This document shows positions 2,227 through 26,799 of a DNA stretch of 26,799 nt, piece after piece. The translations under genes were made by a program, and so were the position numbers. How positions within the stretch are numbered: position 1 is the stretch's first letter; every line of letters begins with the position of its first letter. Source of the DNA: Candidatus Tectimicrobiota bacterium (GTDB lineage Bacteria; JACPUC01). The notes under the pieces were generated by a model, which made no database searches, had not been told where the DNA came from, and saw only the letters and a program-made list of their open reading frames with translations. The stretch spans positions 1-26,799 of the forward strand of contig JACPUC010000005.1 in assembly GCA_016192455.1 (NCBI GenBank), given 5' to 3'.

Positions 2227-3111
2227 ATTCCCTGCTGGCGCGGCCGGCGGTTGGACGGCTGTCCTTTCCAACCGCAGGAGCCGCGCCATAATTTTTGAAG
2301 TCGAAGGCTGGCGCGCATCCACCCGAGGCCCACGCCACTCTCCAACCCCTTCTCGAATCTGCCCCACGAACCATCACGCAGCCGCACCCTCACCTCTCCT
2401 CCACAGGACGTAGCCCTTTGGCTCTTCCCCTCCCGTCAGCTCGTTTCGACCGCCAAAAGGCCTGGACAGCCTCGACAGATGCACTATCCTAAGAGCGACA
2501 GGCGCTCGTCCATTGCCACTTCCATTGATACGTTTCAGAGGTCCTGGAGCGCGGTTGTTCGCCGACAAGCTGTGGGCACGTGTGGTATCGGCTCCCTCTG
2601 CCGCGGTGGCGCTGCAGCGGCAAGGGCGGGACCCGCTCTGCTCATCTTTCTCCATGATTTCCTTGACCAAGTTGTTGGCGGAATGAGGGAGGAGGCTCCA
2701 TATTAGATGCGTTTTTGGCGCGACCCGGGGCGGAGCGACCTCCTCTGCGGCGCCGGCAGCTCGAATGGGTAGGGGTGTGCCCGCGGCAGGCTTGGCGGGG
2801 GCAGGTGCGCCCGTGCCCCGCATGTGGTATCTTTGCCAAGGGGAGGTTCTGCTCCCATGAGGCGCCGGCGGCGAGGCTGTGCCTCACCGTGGCGCGCGCA
2901 GGGCCGTGCCGCCCTGCACCCCCGGTGGCGTGGGCAGGGAGGCGGGCCGGAGGGGGTAGGATGCCAGCGGAAGGACATGTGTGGGCGAGGGGAGCGCTTC
3001 GCAGGGGCGGCCTGGGCTCCCGGCGTTGGTGTTAAATGGACAACGTTCCAGGTGAAGGACCGTGGGGGGTGGCGTGCAGCCCGTCAGAGCTCAACGCAAG
3101 GGGAACGAAGT

Positions 3112-4821
3112 ATGAGAGTGCATGACGTGGTGGTCGTGGGGTCTGGCTTGGCCGGCATGGAGGCGGCGTTGCGCGCCAGCCAGGACGGCGAGCTGGATGT
3201 GGCGATCGTCTCGAAGGTGTTCCCGACCCGCTCCCACTCCGGCGCGGCCCAGGGGGGCATTGCCTGCGCCATCGGCAACCAGGACCCCGAGGACAACTGG
3301 GAAGTCCACATGTTCGACACGGTGAAGGGCGGCGACTACTTGGTGGACCAGGATGCCGCCGAGCTCATGTGCAAGAAGGCGCCCGAGATCATCTACGAGC
3401 TCGAGCACATGGGGCTGGTCTTCAATCGCCTCCCCGACGGCCGCATGGCGCAGCGCTCCTTCGGCGGCCACAGCAAACCCCGCGCCTGTTTCGCCGCCGA
3501 CTGGACCGGCCACGCCATCCTGCACACCCTCTTCGAGATCGTGCTGAAGCGGAAGGTGAAGGTCTACAGCGAGTGGTACGTCACCTCCCTCATCGTGCGC
3601 GACCACACCTGTCACGGCGTGGTGGCCTACGACATCATGCGCGGCGCCCTCGAGGTCTTCAAGGCGCGCGCCGTCATCTTCTGCACCGGCGGCTACGGGC
3701 GCGCTTACAAGATCACCTCGAACGCCCACGCCAACACCGGCGACGGCCTCAGCATCGCCTATCGCGCCGGCATCCCCCTGGAAGACATGGAGTTCGTGCA
3801 GTTCCATCCCACCGGGCTGTACGGCTCCGGCATCCTCCTGACCGAAGGCGCCAGGGGCGAGGGGGCCTACCTCTTGAACAACGACGGCGAGCGCTTCATG
3901 AAGAAGTACGCTCCCGAGCGCATGGAGCTGGGGCCGCGTGACATCGTGGCGCGCGCCGAGCAGCAGGAGATCGACGAGGGGCGCGGCATCAACGGCAAGA
4001 CGTGCGTCAACGTCGACATCCGCCACCTCGGCAAAGAGCGCATCATGGAGCGCCTGCCGCAGGTCCGCGACCTGGCGTGGGATTTCCTCGGCCTGGATTG
4101 CTTCAGCGAGTGCATCCCCATCCAGCCCACCGCCCACTACTCCATGGGGGGCATCCCGGTCAACCTCGACTGCGAGTGCGTCATCGACGACAAGGGGACG
4201 AAGATCGACGGCTTCTACGCCGCCGGCGAGTGCTCCTGCGTGTCGGTGCACGGAGCGAACCGGCTGGGGACGAACTCGCTCCTCGAAGCCTGCGCCATGG
4301 GGGCCATCGCCGGCACGAGCGCCGCGAAGTACGCCAAGAGCGCTCCCGACCTGAGCCTCCCCGATGATGCCGACGTCGAGGCGAAGCGCGAGATCGACTG
4401 GCTGCTCAACGCCCGCGGCAGTGTAAAGATCGCCGATCTGGGCGATGAGCTGCAGCGGACCATGATGGACGACTGCGGCGTCTTCCGCACCGAGGCGCAG
4501 CTCAAACGCCAGTACGACGTCGTCAAGAACTTGCAGCAGCGTTTCCAGAGCATCGGCCTCAGCGATCGCAGCAAGACCTTCAACACGGAGCTCCTCGGGG
4601 CCCTCGAGCTGAGCCACCTGCTCGACTTCGCAGAGGTCATCGTGCTGGGAGCGCTGAACCGCACCGAGAGCCGCGGCGGTCATTCCCGCAAGGACCACCC
4701 GAAACGCGACGACGCCAACTGGTTGAAGCACACCCTTGCCTATAAAGATGTGGACGGACCGCGGTTTGCCTACAAGCCGGTGACGATTACGCGCTTCCAG
4801 CCCCAGGAGAGGAAGTACTAG
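3112..4821 (+). CDS. sdhA: Succinate dehydrogenase/fumarate reductase flavoprotein subunit
   Basis: Catalytic FAD subunit that interconverts succinate and fumarate, passing electrons to the iron-sulfur subunit encoded next. It has 569 residues, typical of SdhA. Seen in order: FAD-binding GSGLAG (10-15); [10 protein letters not shown] (41-50), where H42 is the expected covalent FAD attachment site; HPTG (232-235); EGARGEG (245-251) with R249; GPRDIVARA with R276 and R281 as likely proton-shuttle residues; HYSMGG (342-347); and [13 protein letters not shown] (380-392). The start at 3112 is chosen because the Rossmann strand begins immediately and AAGGGGAACGAAG precedes it. There is no signal peptide or Tat motif, so the active site is predicted to face the cytoplasm, unlike the Tat-exported methylmenaquinol:fumarate reductases. 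The sdhB start codon lies 1 base after the stop. The reaction direction cannot be read from sequence. Confidence 0.96.
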
Positions 4822-4822
4822 G

Positions 4823-5779
4823 ATGGCCGAGCACACCACCTTCAAGGTCTTCAGGTACAACCCGGAAACCGACAGCAAGCCCTACTTCCAGAGCTACCAG
4901 GTGCCGCTCCAAGGGGGGAAGACCGTGCTGGACGGTCTGAACGAGATCAAGGGGCAGCAGGACGGCACCCTGACCTACCGGATGTCCTGCCGGAGCGCCA
5001 TCTGCGGCTCCTGCGGCATGGTGGTGAACGGCCACAGCAAGCTCGTCTGCCGCTTGCAGATCGCGGAAGTCTTGAAGAACTTCGACGAGGTTGTCATCGA
5101 GCCGATGCGCAACTTCGAGGTTATCCGCGACCTCGTGGTCAACATGGACCGCTTCTGGGACAAGATGGACAAGGTGACGCCCTGGCTCGTGGCGGACGAG
5201 GAGAACGTCCCCGCCACCGAGCGTTTGCAGTCCCCGGCGGACTTCAACGTCATCCGCGACGCTTCCTCCTGCATCATGTGCGGCGTCTGCCTCTCCGACT
5301 GCACCTCGCTCGAGGTCGACAGCAACTTCCTGGGACCCGCGGCGCTCGCCAAGGCCTTTCGCATGGCGGCGGACAGCCGCAGCGTCGACCGCGAGGAACG
5401 CCTCCTCGAGCTGAGCAAGGAGGGCGGCGTGTGGGATTGCGCCCGCTGCTACGAGTGCGTGCAGGTCTGTCCGAAGTACGTCGCGCCGATGGAAACCATC
5501 ATGAAGCTGCGCGAGATGACGCTGAAGGCGGACCTCGTCGACAACCGCGGCACGCGGCACGTGGAGCACTTCACCGAGTTGGTGCTGGATTCCGGCATCC
5601 TGGATGAGCGCCGCCTGCCCATGAAGACGGTGGGGCTCACCGACCTGAAGGGCATGCTGCACATGGCCCCCACCGGCCTGCGGATGATGCTGAAGGGGAA
5701 GATGCCGTTGATCCATCCGCATATCAAGGACGTTGACGAGCTGCAGCGGATCGCGCACAAGGTGGAGGAATCGAAGTGA
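4823..5779 (+). CDS. sdhB: Succinate dehydrogenase iron-sulfur subunit
   Basis: Electron-transfer subunit of 318 residues, longer than canonical SdhB (about 240) because of a C-terminal extension from about residue 225. The plant-type ferredoxin domain has [2Fe-2S] cysteines C56, C61, C64 and C76. The C-terminal ferredoxin domain has C150-x2-C153-x2-C156-x3-C160 and C206-x2-C209-x2-C212-x3-C216. Canonical SdhB lacks a Cys at the C209 position and builds a [3Fe-4S] cluster. The extra Cys here predicts a second [4Fe-4S] cluster, as known for complexes that use an SdhE (CCG-domain) anchor. It starts 1 base after the sdhA stop, and its own stop overlaps the next start in a GTGA arrangement, so the three genes should be translationally coupled. 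Confidence 0.95.
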   Translation: MAEHTTFKVFRYNPETDSKPYFQSYQVPLQGGKTVLDGLNEIKGQQDGTLTYRMSCRSAICGSCGMVVNGHSKLVCRLQIAEVLKNFDEVVIEPMRNFEVIRDLVVNMDRFWDKMDKVTPWLVADEENVPATERLQSPADFNVIRDASSCIMCGVCLSDCTSLEVDSNFLGPAALAKAFRMAADSRSVDREERLLELSKEGGVWDCARCYECVQVCPKYVAPMETIMKLREMTLKADLVDNRGTRHVEHFTELVLDSGILDERRLPMKTVGLTDLKGMLHMAPTGLRMMLKGKMPLIHPHIKDVDELQRIAHKVEESK

Positions 5780-6940: not shown

Positions 6941-8098
6941 ATGAAGATCCACGAGTACCAGGCGAAAGAGATTCTGTCGCGCTACGGCGTGCCGGTGCCG
7001 CGCGGAAAGGTGGCGGCCGGCGTCGACGAGGCCGAGGCCATCGCCCGGGAGCTGGGCGGCGCCTGCGTGGTGAAGGCGCAAATTCACGCCGGCGGCCGCG
7101 GCAAGGGGGGCGGCGTGAAGCTGGTGAAATCGCCCCAGGAGGCCCGCGGCGCCGCGCAGGCGATCCTCGGCATGCAGCTCGTGACGCCGCAGACCGGCCC
7201 CGCCGGGCAGAAGGTGAAGCGCGTTCTCGTCGAGCAGGGGATGGCCATCGCCCGCGAGCTCTACCTCGGCATGCTGGTCGATCGCGCCCGCAACGCGCTG
7301 GTGGTGATGGCGAGCGAGGCCGGCGGCATGGAGATCGAAGAGGTCGCCGCCGCCACGCCGGAGAAGATTCTCAAGGAGTACGTCGATCCGGCGGTCGGCC
7401 TGCGACCCTTTCAGACCATGCGCCTTGCCTACGGCCTGCACTTGCCGGCGGAGAGCGTCCGCAAGGCGAGCAGCTTCATGCTGCAGCTCTACCGGGCCTT
7501 CGTCGACATGGACCTGTCGCTGGCGGAGATCAATCCCCTGGTGCTGACCAAGGACGGCAACCTCTTGGCCCTCGACGCCAAGGTGAACTTCGACGACAAC
7601 GCCCTCTTCCGCCATCCGGAGACGAAGGAGCTGCGCGACCTCGATGAAGAGGACCCCAGGGAGATCGAGGCCTCGAAGTACGGTCTCAGCTACATCAAGC
7701 TCGACGGCACGGTCGGCTGCATGGTGAACGGGGCCGGCCTGGCCATGGCGACGATGGACATCATCAAGCACTTCGGAGCGGAGCCGGCGAATTTCCTCGA
7801 TGTCGGCGGCGGCGCCAGCAGCGAGACGGTCGCCAACGCCTTCCGCATCATCATCTCCGATGAGCGGGTGAAGGCGGTGCTCATCAACATCTTCGGCGGC
7901 ATCGTGCGCTGCGACCGGGTGGCGCAGGGGATCATCGAGGCCCTCCAGAAGGTGCAGGTGGAGGTGCCGGTGGTGGTGCGCCTCGAGGGGACGAACGCCA
8001 CGGAAGCCGCCAAGCTGCTCCAGGAATCGCCCCTCAACTTCCGGGTGGCGACGGGCCTCAGCGATGCGGCGCAGAAGGTGGTGGCGGCAAGCGCCTGA
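6941..8098 (+). CDS. sucC: Succinyl-CoA synthetase (ADP-forming) beta subunit
   Basis: With SucD it interconverts succinyl-CoA plus ADP/GDP and phosphate with succinate plus ATP/GTP and CoA. It has 385 residues, close to the usual 388. It starts with the family N-terminus [12 protein letters not shown], followed by the ATP-grasp nucleotide-binding segment [19 protein letters not shown], the metal-binding region [12 protein letters not shown]...[15 protein letters not shown], and the C-terminal CoA-ligase domain with FLDVGGGAS and [10 protein letters not shown]. An in-frame ATG at 6911 would add ten residues ([10 protein letters not shown]) without homology; the ATG at 6941 gives the standard start. 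In this cluster it links the mutase product succinyl-CoA to the succinate dehydrogenase, and is a site of substrate-level phosphorylation if the flow is oxidative. Confidence 0.96.
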
Positions 8099-8224
8099 GA
8101 CGGCGCGCGGCCACGAGGCCACGAGTCGACACGGGCTCTGCGACCACCATCGACGAGGCCGGCTGACGAAGCCGATGGCCCATGCCGCGCGCTGGGAGCA
8201 CGGGCTGCGAAGGACGAAACCCTC

Positions 8225-9100
8225 ATGAGTATCCTGGTTGACGCGACGACGAAGGTGGTGGTGCAGGGAATTACCGGCCGCGAGGGGAGCTTCCACGCTG
8301 GGCAGTGCAAGGAGTATGGCACGCGGATCGTCGCCGGCGTCTCTCCAGGCAAGAGAGGCACGCTGGAACAGGGCGTGCCCGTCTTCAACACGGTGCGCGA
8401 CGCCGTCACCGAGACCGGAGCGAACACCTCGCTCATCTTCGTGCCGCCGGCCTTCGCCGCTGACGCCATTATGGAGGCGGCCGACGCCGGGGTGGCCCTC
8501 ATCGTCTGCATCACCGAGGGCATCCCCACCATCGACATGGTGAAGGCCGCCGAGTACGTCAAGCGCCGCCGCGCGCGCCTTGTCGGCCCGAACTGCCCGG
8601 GCGTCATCACCCCCGGCGCGGCGAAGGTGGGCATCATGCCCGGCTTCATCCACCGCCCGGGTGACGTGGGGATCGTGTCGCGCAGCGGCACCCTCACCTA
8701 CGAGGCTGTCAAGCAGTTGAGCGAGCGCGGCATCGGCCAGTCCACCTGCGTCGGCATCGGCGGCGACCCCATCATCGGCTCGACCTTCCGCGACATCATC
8801 GCGCTCTTCCAGCAGGATGCCGCCACCGCCGCCATCGTCATGATCGGCGAGATCGGCGGCAGCGCCGAGGAGGAGGCGGCGGCCTTCGTGAAGGAGCACG
8901 TGACGAAGCCGGTCGTGAGCTTCATCGCCGGCCAGACCGCCCCGCCGGGACGCCGCATGGGGCATGCCGGCGCCATCATCTCCGGCGGCAAGGGGACCGC
9001 GGCCGAGAAGATGGCCGCCCTGAAGGCGGCCGGCATCCACGTCTGCCCCAGCCCGGCCGAGATCGGCCGGACCATGGCCACGGTGCTCGGACGCGCCTGA
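8225..9100 (+). CDS. sucD: Succinyl-CoA synthetase alpha subunit
   Basis: CoA-binding and phosphohistidine subunit; 291 residues, full length. The N-terminal Rossmann CoA-binding domain shows [17 protein letters not shown] (residues 11-27) and the loop VSPGKRG. The CoA-ligase domain shows [11 protein letters not shown] and [11 protein letters not shown]. The catalytic H247 is in [21 protein letters not shown] lies 9 bases ahead of the ATG. It is separated from sucC by 126 bases, unusually far for this pair, in a stretch where I see no gene or clear hairpin. It pairs with SucC as an alpha-beta unit. Confidence 0.96.
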
Positions 9101-9177
9101 ACCGCGCCCGTGAAGAACGCCGGCGCCGCGCCGCGGAACCGCTTGGCGTCCAACCTTCTTGCCTGCGAGTGACGACG

Positions 9178-9600
9178 ATGGAACGAACCTTGGCGATTAT
9201 CAAGCCGGACGCCGTGGCAGCCGGGGTTGTCGGCAAGATCCTCAGCCGCGTCGAGGCGGCAGGGTTCACTATCCGCGCCCTGAAGCTCGTGCACCTCAGC
9301 AAGCGGCAGGCCGAAGGGTTCTACCAAGTGCACCGCGAGCGGCCCTTCTTCCAGGACCTCACGACCTTCATGTCGTCCGGGCCCGCCGTCCCCCTCCTTC
9401 TCGAACGCGAGAACGCCATCGCCGCCTGGCGCGAGCTGATGGGAGCAACCAACCCCGCCCAGGCGGCCGAGGGCACCCTGCGCAAGGAGTTCGCCACCGA
9501 CATCGAGAAGAATGCCGTGCACGGCTCCGACTCCCCGGCCACCGCGGCGTATGAGATCGCCTTCTTCTTCTCGGCGCTGGACGTCTGCCCGCGTGATTGA
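9178..9600 (+). CDS. ndk: Nucleoside diphosphate kinase
   Basis: Transfers the gamma-phosphate between nucleoside triphosphates and diphosphates through a phosphohistidine. It has 140 residues, the usual length. The N-terminus is [10 protein letters not shown], and the catalytic H115 is in NAVHGSDSP, followed by the conserved [13 protein letters not shown] at 9169 in the same frame is an alternative start adding three residues (M-T-T); I take the ATG because the family begins [10 protein letters not shown], though neither start has a strong ribosome binding site. Its place after sucCD makes sense: it exchanges GTP and ATP made by succinyl-CoA synthetase, and such neighbourhoods are common. 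Confidence 0.95.
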
Positions 9601-16480: not shown

Positions 16481-16582
16481 TTCTTGTGGTGGATCATTGC
16501 TCCCCCACGCCCCCTGTTCCGTAGGGGCGGTTCGCGAACCGCCCCTACAAGACGGGGCGCGCGGGGACAAGGTCCCCAGGCG
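16481..16582. repeat. Three-hairpin intergenic repeat, copy 2
   Basis: A perfect 28-bp palindrome (16521-16548; arm GTAGGGGCGGTTCG) is flanked on the left by TTCTTGTGGTGG...TGCTCCCCCAC (16481-16507) and on the right by GGGGAC-AAG-GTCCCC (16563-16577). It fills the gap between the convergent alaS and molybdoenzyme genes, where a two-way transcription end is expected. Confidence 0.8.
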
Positions 16583-22228: not shown

Positions 22229-22598
22229 CACTCGCCCGCCTCCATCGCTTCACGACGTACCGGCAGTGCTGCAACCGAAAGAGCAGGCTTGCAGCGCGGC
22301 AGCAGTGCTCCCTCGCGCCTCCCCCTCAACCTAGACAGCGCGCACCAAGCCGCGGCGGCCAGCGCTACGTCGCACAAGTTCCATCCGTAGTTCGACGCCT
22401 TCTTCGTGCCATATGGGGAAGAAGTTCTTGTGGGGGACCCTTGCTCCCCCAAACCTCTTGGTCCGTAAGGGCGGTTCGCGAACCGCCCCTACCAGCCGGG
22501 GTGCGCGAGGGGGCGAGGCTGCCTCGCAAATCTCTTCGCTCTCATTTGAGAAACAGCACACCAGTTCCTGGTCATGCCGGGCTCGCGCGCGCCGCAGC
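22229..22598. other. Intergenic region between convergent genes
   Basis: About 370 bases between the ends of the phosphoesterase gene and the GrdB-like selenoprotein gene. No gene is apparent. It contains the stem CTTCTTC (22399-22405)/GAAGAAG (22418-22424) and then structured repeat copy 3; together they are candidates for ending transcription from both sides. Confidence 0.5.
22425..22530. repeat. Three-hairpin intergenic repeat, copy 3
   Basis: Left hairpin TGGGGG (22431-22436)/CCCCCA (22446-22451); central 28-bp palindrome at 22465-22492 with one mismatch (GTAAGGGCGG instead of GTAGGGGCGG); right hairpin GCGAGG/CCTCGC near 22506-22528. This is the clearest full-length member. It shares TTCTTGTGG and TTGCTCCCCCA with copy 2. 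It sits between convergent genes, as copy 2 does. Confidence 0.8.
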
Positions 22599-23486: not shown

Positions 23487-23676
23487 GAGGTTCCTCCTCC
23501 TAAGTGCGGGTCTGTTGAGGTTTCCCTTGTCACTATACAGGAAGTAGAGTCTCGCTGCGAAAGGCGCGGCTCCATCGTCTGCTTGAGGGGCAGTTCCCCA
23601 TGGGCCTCCGGCCCACCCGCAAGGTCATGAAAAGAAGCGGACACTTCTTTCTCGGTAACCTTTCATCCCATCGACC

Positions 23677-23704
23677 GTAGGGGCGGTTCGCGAACCGCCC
23701 CTAC
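23677..23704. repeat. Structured repeat copy 4 (central palindrome only)
   Basis: Perfect 28-bp palindrome with arm GTAGGGGCGGTTCG, identical to copy 2. The flanking hairpins of the full element are missing; instead CATCCC...CGA on the left faces TCGGGATG on the right, which extends the pairing. Confidence 0.75.
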
Positions 23705-23800
23705 ATCGGGATGCAAGGAACCGCGGCTGAACGCAGAGTCAGGAGGATCTCGGTGTGCCTCCGCGTCCCCCTGCGGTTCCTTCCCCTACCTTCCCCGCGC

Positions 23801-25208: not shown

Positions 25209-25377
25209 CGGAGACACTTTCGGGAAGCGCAGGTGGCATCTGCAGCGCGGCTACGATACCATGAGCGGCAGCAGGAATCTAGGCTGCGGCAATGGTGCGC
25301 ACCCCTCGCCTGGAGCCCGCGGGGCTGAACCTGGGGAGGGCGCCGTGGCGCGGACTCAAGGTTGATGGAGTAGAACT

Positions 25378-26202
25378 ATGCAGGATGCACAAGCGTTGCG
25401 AATCACCGTCGCGGACCTGAAGGCGAGCCTGGGGGCGGCGAAGGTCCGCCTGATCGATGCGCGCCCGCCGGCGGAGTACGCCGCGGGCCATGTCGCCGGG
25501 GCGGTGAACTTCGATCCGTTTCCCCCGTATGCGACGATCGACACGAGCCCCGCGGGTCTCTCCGCCTTCTTCCACATGATGAGCGAGGTGTTCGGCCGCT
25601 TGGGGATTGCCCCCACCTCGCGGGTGATCTGTTACGACGCCACCTCCGGCGTGCGCGCGGCCAGGCTCGTGTGGCTGCTGCATGCCATGGGGCACGCCGA
25701 GGCGGTCATCGTGGATGGCGGGATGCAGGCCTGGCAGGCCGCCGGCTACCCCGTCGAGGAGGCGGTCCCCGACGTCACCCCCACCACCTTCACGCCGCGG
25801 CTCAGGGGGTCGCTGGTGGCGGGGTTCGAGGATGTCCTGGCTGGCCTCTCCGACCCCAAGGTGGTGCTTTGGGACGTGCGCAGCGAAGGCGAGCACTACG
25901 GCGAAACGGTGCGCTCCAAGCGCGGCGGCACCATCCCCGGCGCCATCCACTACGAGTGGACGAACAACCTCGACGGCAACGGCTGCTTCAAGGACCTCGA
26001 GGTCATCCGCCGCGAGCTGGAGGCGCGGGGGATCACGCCGGAGAAGGAAATCATCCCCTTCTGACAGGGGGGCTACCGTTCGGCGAACGGTTGGCTTGTC
26101 TTGCAGCTCTTGGGCTACCCGAAGGTGCGCAACTACGTCGGCTCGTGGGGCGAATGGGGCAACCGCGAGGACCTGCCGATCGAAAAGCGGCAACGGCCAT
26201 GA
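25378..26202 (+). CDS. Tandem-rhodanese sulfurtransferase, selenoprotein with Sec229
   Basis: A 274-residue two-domain rhodanese (thiosulfate/3-mercaptopyruvate sulfurtransferase-like) if the in-frame TGA at 26062-26064 is read as selenocysteine. The N-terminal domain (about 8-125) has [20 protein letters not shown] and an inactive loop with Asp where Cys would be ([14 protein letters not shown]), normal for tandem rhodaneses. The C-terminal domain (about 140-265) has [13 protein letters not shown] and the active-site loop [22 protein letters not shown], where homologues have CQGGYRS, then [18 protein letters not shown]. Translation ending at the TGA would lose the catalytic loop and 45 further residues that are clearly family sequence. 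A SECIS-like hairpin follows the TGA. GATGGAGTAGAACT precedes the ATG. The acceptor is unknown; transfer of sulfur or selenium as persulfide or perselenide is the inferred chemistry. A nonsense mutation or base-call error is the alternative. Confidence 0.87.
26075..26091 (+). promoter_or_regulatory. Predicted bacterial SECIS element of the rhodanese gene
   Basis: ACCGTTC (26075-26081) pairs perfectly with GAACGGT (26085-26091) around loop GGC. The loop begins 17 bases after the TGA at 26062-26064 and its first base is G. Geometry matches the hairpin in the GrdB-like gene (18 bases, loop GTG). Confidence 0.65.
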
Positions 26203-26589: not shown

Positions 26590-26799
26590 GGAGCCTGTCG
26601 GAGAAACCCCCGCAGGCGTCTGGTTTTTGGTAGACTGTGAGGTGTTCGCAACCGGCGCGGGGCCGGCCCTGTTCCGCTGTTTGCTGGTGGGGGTGTTATG
26701 CCACGCAAGTTCCGCACCACCAACCCTGATCAGTTGTACCTGCTGCCGCCGTCGCTGCAGGAGTGGCTGCCGGAAGGGCACCTGGCGTACTTCATCCTG
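26590..26799 (+). mobile_element. Left end of an insertion sequence (IS1182-like), truncated by window edge
   Basis: A transposase gene starts at 26698, and about 108 bases of leader precede it. GAGCCTGTCGGAGAAACCCC at 26591-26610 resembles the terminal inverted repeats of IS1182-type elements; GCCTG/CAGGC (26593-26597/26613-26617) can pair. The exact left boundary and target duplication cannot be set because the right end is outside the window. A 10-base C-run lies just outside at 26570-26579. Confidence 0.6.
26698..26799 (+). CDS. Transposase, N-terminal fragment (DUF772/IS1182-like)
   Basis: Thirty-four codons remain open to the window edge. FRTTNPDQLYLLPPSLQEWL and PEGHLAYFIL match the conserved N-terminus of DUF772-type transposases, which begin with a short 'DQ..LLPPSL.DWLPE.HLA.F' segment. 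The ATG follows GGTGGGGGTGTT. The catalytic DDE residues would lie beyond the window, so whether the gene is intact is unknown. Confidence 0.75.
   Translation, partial: MPRKFRTTNPDQLYLLPPSLQEWLPEGHLAYFIL

Follow-up and report, generated by a model that had tools for sequence, protein, structure and literature searches.

The open reading frame that starts at position 25378 of a Candidatus Tectimicrobiota contig has a TGA triplet at the position where related rhodaneses encode the catalytic cysteine, and the frame continues beyond it. The question raised by this locus is whether the triplet terminates translation or specifies selenocysteine (Sec). The stretch analyzed (termed here the window, 26,799 nt) is the whole of contig C25 of a draft genome of 4.46 Mb in 31 contigs. 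Comparison with homologues, RNA folding, phylogeny, structural modeling and a search of the source genome together make it very probable that the gene encodes a predicted tandem-domain sulfurtransferase of the thiosulfate/3-mercaptopyruvate type, in which Sec 229 is the sole catalytic chalcogen and is decoded with the help of a downstream hairpin.

The reading frame and its internal TGA

The frame consists of 228 codons from ATG 25378 to TGA 26062–26064, followed by 45 more codons and a second TGA at 26200–26202 (Table 1). Read by the standard code it is a 228 aa open reading frame, and gene calls made in this way would report a truncated protein, as had been stated in the initial annotation. 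The read-through protein is a two-domain rhodanese, with the Pfam Rhodanese family matching in two stretches (1.5e-36). Its score against the NCBIfam equivalog for SseA, the 3-mercaptopyruvate sulfurtransferase (NF008557), is 108 bits, which is below the curated cut-off of 250.

Table 1. Positions of the features of the rhodanese locus in the window.
Feature	Position	Strand	Remarks
Tandem rhodanese selenoprotein gene	25378–26202	+	274 codons, Sec is residue 229, stop TGA 26200–26202
GGAG, probable ribosome-binding site	25366–25369	+	5′ of ATG 25378, suggested by its sequence
Rhodanese domain, N-terminal	25405–25743	+	residues 10–122, best Pfam stretch
In-frame TGA, Sec 229 at the catalytic Cys position	26062–26064	+	active loop U-Q-G-G-Y-R (229–234)
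Read-through part	26065–26199	+	45 codons completing the catalytic domain
SECIS hairpin	26075–26091	+	ACCGUUC-GGC-GAACGGU, 7 bp, 17 nt between TGA and loop

In alignments, the internal TGA occupies the column of the catalytic Cys, both for the solved rhodaneses 1e0c, 1uar and 3aax and for 110 distinct sequences of Cys homologues, which bears out the initial proposal that the frame is interrupted exactly at that residue. Residue 229 and R234 are invariant across the 41 rows of the alignment, when U is read as C.

The homologue set was obtained from a scan of a genome collection and from searches of relatives, and it comprises 150 distinct sequences that cover the catalytic codon. This codon is TGC or TGT in 110 of them and TGA in 40, and no other codon is found. 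Thus the position is Cys or TGA in 150 of 150 sequences, which is in keeping with replacement of Cys by Sec and not with random stops in relatives. One group of Sec forms is from Poribacteria, Latescibacteria, one “Gemmatimonadetes” MAG and one Nitrospinota MAG. The remaining Sec forms are found in the class of genome G186 and its relatives, in the pair G143/G282 and in the window gene. The source genome also holds three intact Cys paralogues beside the Sec rhodanese.

A Sec gene of another rhodanese subfamily (CRIxERS type) was also observed (L166, about positions 4624–5358, minus strand, G324:C133). TGA likewise stands in place of its catalytic Cys codon (URLSHRAS), and a 9-bp hairpin, ACCGGGCCA-GUC-UGGUCUGGU, lies at +19. 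The same genome carries a Sec rhodanese of the window type.

Conservation beyond the TGA

The mean identity of the window protein to 40 homologues is 68% in the 45 codons after the TGA and 38% in the 228 codons before it, and identity is greater downstream than upstream in all 40. When the window gene is compared with its nearest Cys homologue (L019), there are 6, 5 and 20 differences at codon positions 1, 2 and 3, respectively, over 41 downstream codons. The conservation after the TGA and the predominance of third-position differences argue that the read-through part is coding sequence under constraint and not a decaying tail. The earlier claim that the same frame runs for 45 residues past the TGA to 26200–26202 therefore holds, and these residues are under strong selection.

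These data bear on the simplest alternative, which is that the TGA is an ordinary stop and the gene either a decaying pseudogene or a shortened, non-catalytic rhodanese. Such a reading agrees with the 228 aa frame of the standard code, and the three Cys paralogues could render a Sec copy dispensable. However, the codons that would lie outside the gene are its most conserved part and change mostly at third positions, there is neither a frameshift nor a second stop ahead of the natural gene end, and TGA is present at exactly the same codon in 39 other homologues. An ordinary stop is thus strongly disfavoured, and we consider it very improbable.

The downstream hairpin

The arms of the hairpin are at positions 26075–26081 and 26085–26091 and the GGC loop is at 26082–26084. 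The stem of 7 bp, the loop and the distance of 17 nt described in the initial annotation are confirmed, but taken on its own the hairpin is not unusual. Its energy is −7.7 kcal/mol alone and −17.4 for the local fold, and the folded 52-nt stretch has a z of −2.2. Among synonymous recodings of the same peptide that follow the codon usage of the window, 8–10% give an equally stable hairpin. The hairpin by itself is therefore weak evidence, insufficient for the claim. Since the total fold is also no better than that of recoded controls, stability alone was rejected as proof of a SECIS. In other genes of the window, 3.4% of codons have a comparable hairpin on their 3′ side.

Published criteria for bSECIS elements specify a loop of 3–9 nt with G in the first two positions, a stem of 4–16 bp, a spacing of 16–37 nt and an MFE of at most −7.5 (PMC13188914). 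The window hairpin lies within all of these limits, with a G-led loop of 3 nt, 7 bp, 17 nt and −7.7 kcal/mol. When loosely applied, the same criteria are also passed by 20 of 110 Cys homologues and are thus not specific.

It is the comparison with other Sec genes that raises the hairpin above chance. The hairpin is common to 16 Sec genes in three lineages, i.e. the window gene and 15 others. Its form is ACCGUGC-GGC-GCACGGU in the class of G186 and UCCGUGC-GGC-GCACGGA in G143/G282; the window form is given in Table 1. Two of the seven pairs have changed on both sides (A-U/U-A and G-C/U-A), 99.1% of cells are paired, and pairing across the 16 hairpins is lost in a control in which the partner arm is slid. 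A Watson-Crick hairpin of 6 bp with a 3-nt loop and G in the first two positions is found in this range in none of the 110 Cys homologues. The window SECIS is thus supported by covariation with the other Sec lineages.

Two codons of the stem region differ in the same way between Sec and Cys forms. The Arg codon in the stem is CGT in all 16 hairpin-bearing Sec genes vs 3 of 68 GC-rich Cys homologues; of the 427 Arg codons counted in sampled genes of the window, 9 are CGT. Nine codons on from Sec, Gly (Gly 238) is found in 16 of 16 hairpin-bearing Sec genes vs 3 of 110 Cys homologues.

A misreading of TGC or TGT as TGA can be considered here as well, since the assembly is a draft in 31 contigs and a single base change would be enough. 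The same codon is TGA in many independent assemblies from other lineages, which makes a sequencing or assembly error most unlikely. In addition, only a real TGA would lead one to expect the covarying hairpin together with Gly 238 and the rare CGT codon.

In the largest other Sec group, that of Poribacteria, Latescibacteria and Nitrospinota, neither a GGC hairpin at +17 nor a consistent canonical SECIS was found. A SECIS common to this group was rejected, since RNAalifold gives no covarying helix and few members pass the published criteria. Members of the Sec clade without the hairpin are L021, L059, L063, L071, L080, L084, L110, L112, L115, L117 and L161. Some bSECIS are reported to lie outside the published model (PMC13188914), and the Poribacteria-type clade may use a different SECIS element.

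Selenocysteine machinery of the source genome

All four components, selA, selB, selC and selD, are present in the source genome, so that the Sec reading does not fail for want of machinery. SelA (491 bits) and SelB (366 bits) are encoded close together on contig C23. The tRNA-Sec is on C8 and scores 75.5 bits, above the Rfam cut-off; ARAGORN calls it tRNA-SeC with anticodon tca (UCA). SelD scores 389 bits (L169, positions 1908–2828; G000:C3:190907–191827) and has one in-frame TGA near its N-terminus. This TGA is followed at +17 by the hairpin GGGUCC-GGG-GGACCU, the spacing and loop type of which are common to SelD and the rhodanese gene. By its in-frame TGA and hairpin, the SelD of the source genome is likely itself a selenoprotein. 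The alpha subunit of its formate dehydrogenase gives a full-length match with no TGA.

The presence of SelB was also considered as a means to discriminate Sec from Cys forms. SelB is above the cut-off in 21 of 21 Sec-form genomes searched vs 22 of 28 Cys-form genomes, and the discriminator was rejected since most Cys-form genomes have SelB too.

Decoding of the UGA as Trp or Cys, by suppression or a change of code, is exceedingly improbable: an in-frame UGA in a conserved gene fits any recoding, but UGA terminates this gene itself and is the commonest stop (12 of 18 counted in sampled window genes), which argues against global reassignment, and its place at the catalytic Cys together with the Sec machinery points to Sec.

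Phylogeny of the Sec forms

The window gene groups with Cys homologues, outside the other Sec groups. Its nearest relative is L019, with 51% identity; L019 and L048, from a Tectomicrobia contig with the same match, are probably one gene. A tree of 95 rows needs five changes of state between Cys and Sec. In AU tests, a single Sec clade of the window gene and the Poribacteria-type group is rejected (p 0.0025), as are one with the G186 class (p 9e-5) and, at a borderline level, one with the G143 pair (p 0.036). A single origin of all Sec forms is rejected as well (p 7e-6).

At least two independent origins of Sec from Cys are well supported by these trees, and three or four are likely, with the exact count blurred by long branches and by the borderline G143 test. 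Since the window gene branches apart from the remaining Sec groups, as judged by the AU tests, the conversion has probably been repeated, with parallel gain of the hairpin, and the window lineage appears to have made the change independently.

On balance we lean towards a more specific reading, in which Cys has been converted to Sec at least three to four times in tandem rhodaneses and three lineages (the window, the class of G186 and the G143/G282 group) have converged on nearly the same SECIS, CCGUNC-GGC-GNACGG at +17. Here Gly would replace the usual Thr, Ala or Ser and so complete the SECIS stem. If this is correct, the family offers a natural experiment on the origin of a SECIS inside the coding sequence of a catalytic loop, and parallel changes at one codon make that origin testable.

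Structure and proposed function

An AlphaFold model of the read-through protein, built with the 41-row alignment, has a pLDDT of 95.2 and a pTM of 0.92 over all 274 residues. It matches solved tandem rhodaneses with Z of 32.8 to 1uar and 32.7 to 1e0c (Foldseek 1e-26). The model displays two rhodanese domains of the TST/MST fold, of which the C-terminal one holds the chalcogen and the active loop of six residues. Sec 229 follows a strand at positions 224–228 and opens the loop ahead of a helix at 233–244. The start of a loop after a strand and before a helix is the usual location of the catalytic Cys in the rhodanese fold.

Sec insertion, the chemistry and the substrate are inferred as follows. 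With the ribosome at UGA 26062–26064, the hairpin with its GGC loop 17 nt further on would recruit SelB and Sec-tRNA(Sec), and translation would then proceed to 26199 and complete the catalytic domain. Were translation to stop at the UGA, the resulting protein of 228 residues would be missing its active loop and final helices. From the established rhodanese mechanism, the selenolate in the cradle loop most probably accepts a sulfane sulfur donated by thiosulfate, a persulfide or 3-mercaptopyruvate. A Se-S persulfide-like intermediate would form, and the sulfur would be passed on to a nucleophile or thiol.

No conserved neighbourhood that points to a substrate was found, and the genes on either side change from one lineage to the next (MATE, seryl-tRNA synthetase, amidase, xanthine-dehydrogenase-like and BenE). 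The phage and defence libraries gave no match. In two separate lineages, xanthine-dehydrogenase-like large subunits adjoin or are near the Sec rhodanese (L163, positions 7277–9595; L063, positions 2686–4917). A link between this neighbour and sulfuration of the molybdenum site is possible.

Other features of the window

A near-perfect palindrome, CCGTAGGGGCGGTTCGCGAACCGCCCCTACA, is present in four copies at positions 73–103, 16519–16549, 22463–22493 and 23675–23705. Three of the copies are within longer repeats of 86 nt, and the element is REP-like. At positions 26700–26799 the contig breaks within an open reading frame that, judged by eye, resembles the start of a transposase (MPRKFRTTNPDQLYLLPPSLQEW...). 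The contig may thus end at a mobile-element repeat.

Comparison with known rhodaneses

Sec forms of COG2897 have been predicted selenoproteins in the literature since 2005 (PMC1088965; PMC2398784; PMC9312934; PMC13188914). Three Sec sequences of the “rhodanese-related sulfurtransferase” COG2897 were described from the Sargasso Sea (PMC1088965), and the GOS data gave eight Sec rhodaneses of cd01449 and one of COG2897 (PMC2398784). The COG2897 form appears in a later review (PMC9312934) and is listed as COG2897/SseA “form 4, UxxG” (PMC13188914). Deposited representatives of this form are MCY3690685.1 and MQG53192.1. In the literature searched, of which coverage was partial, no functional characterisation of a Sec rhodanese of the COG2897 type was found. 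The idea of a Sec COG2897 rhodanese is thus already known, and what is new here is the independent origin and the parallel SECIS. Since a single genome here holds a Sec form beside three Cys paralogues, with a covarying SECIS and with relatives for comparison, the contribution of selenium to sulfur transfer could be measured.

By motif and description, the window protein resembles the UxxG form, both being tandem rhodaneses with Sec for Cys, and U-Q-G-G fits UxxG. The published examples are from marine metagenomes and reviews; the window gene falls outside the Poribacteria/Latescibacteria Sec clade of this analysis. Two other Sec rhodaneses also have a rhodanese domain with Sec but are separate families: NF041203, with a CxU motif (window protein 41.5 bits, cut-off 115), and TsoB, NF045694 (window protein 19.2 bits, cut-off 805). 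Azotobacter vinelandii RhdA (1e0c, 36% identity) and the Thermus rhodanese (1uar, 32% identity) share with the window protein the two-domain fold, the catalytic position and the six-residue loop. Both have a catalytic Cys where the window protein has Sec, and the active loop, C-Q-T-H-H-R in RhdA, is U-Q-G-G-Y-R in the window protein.
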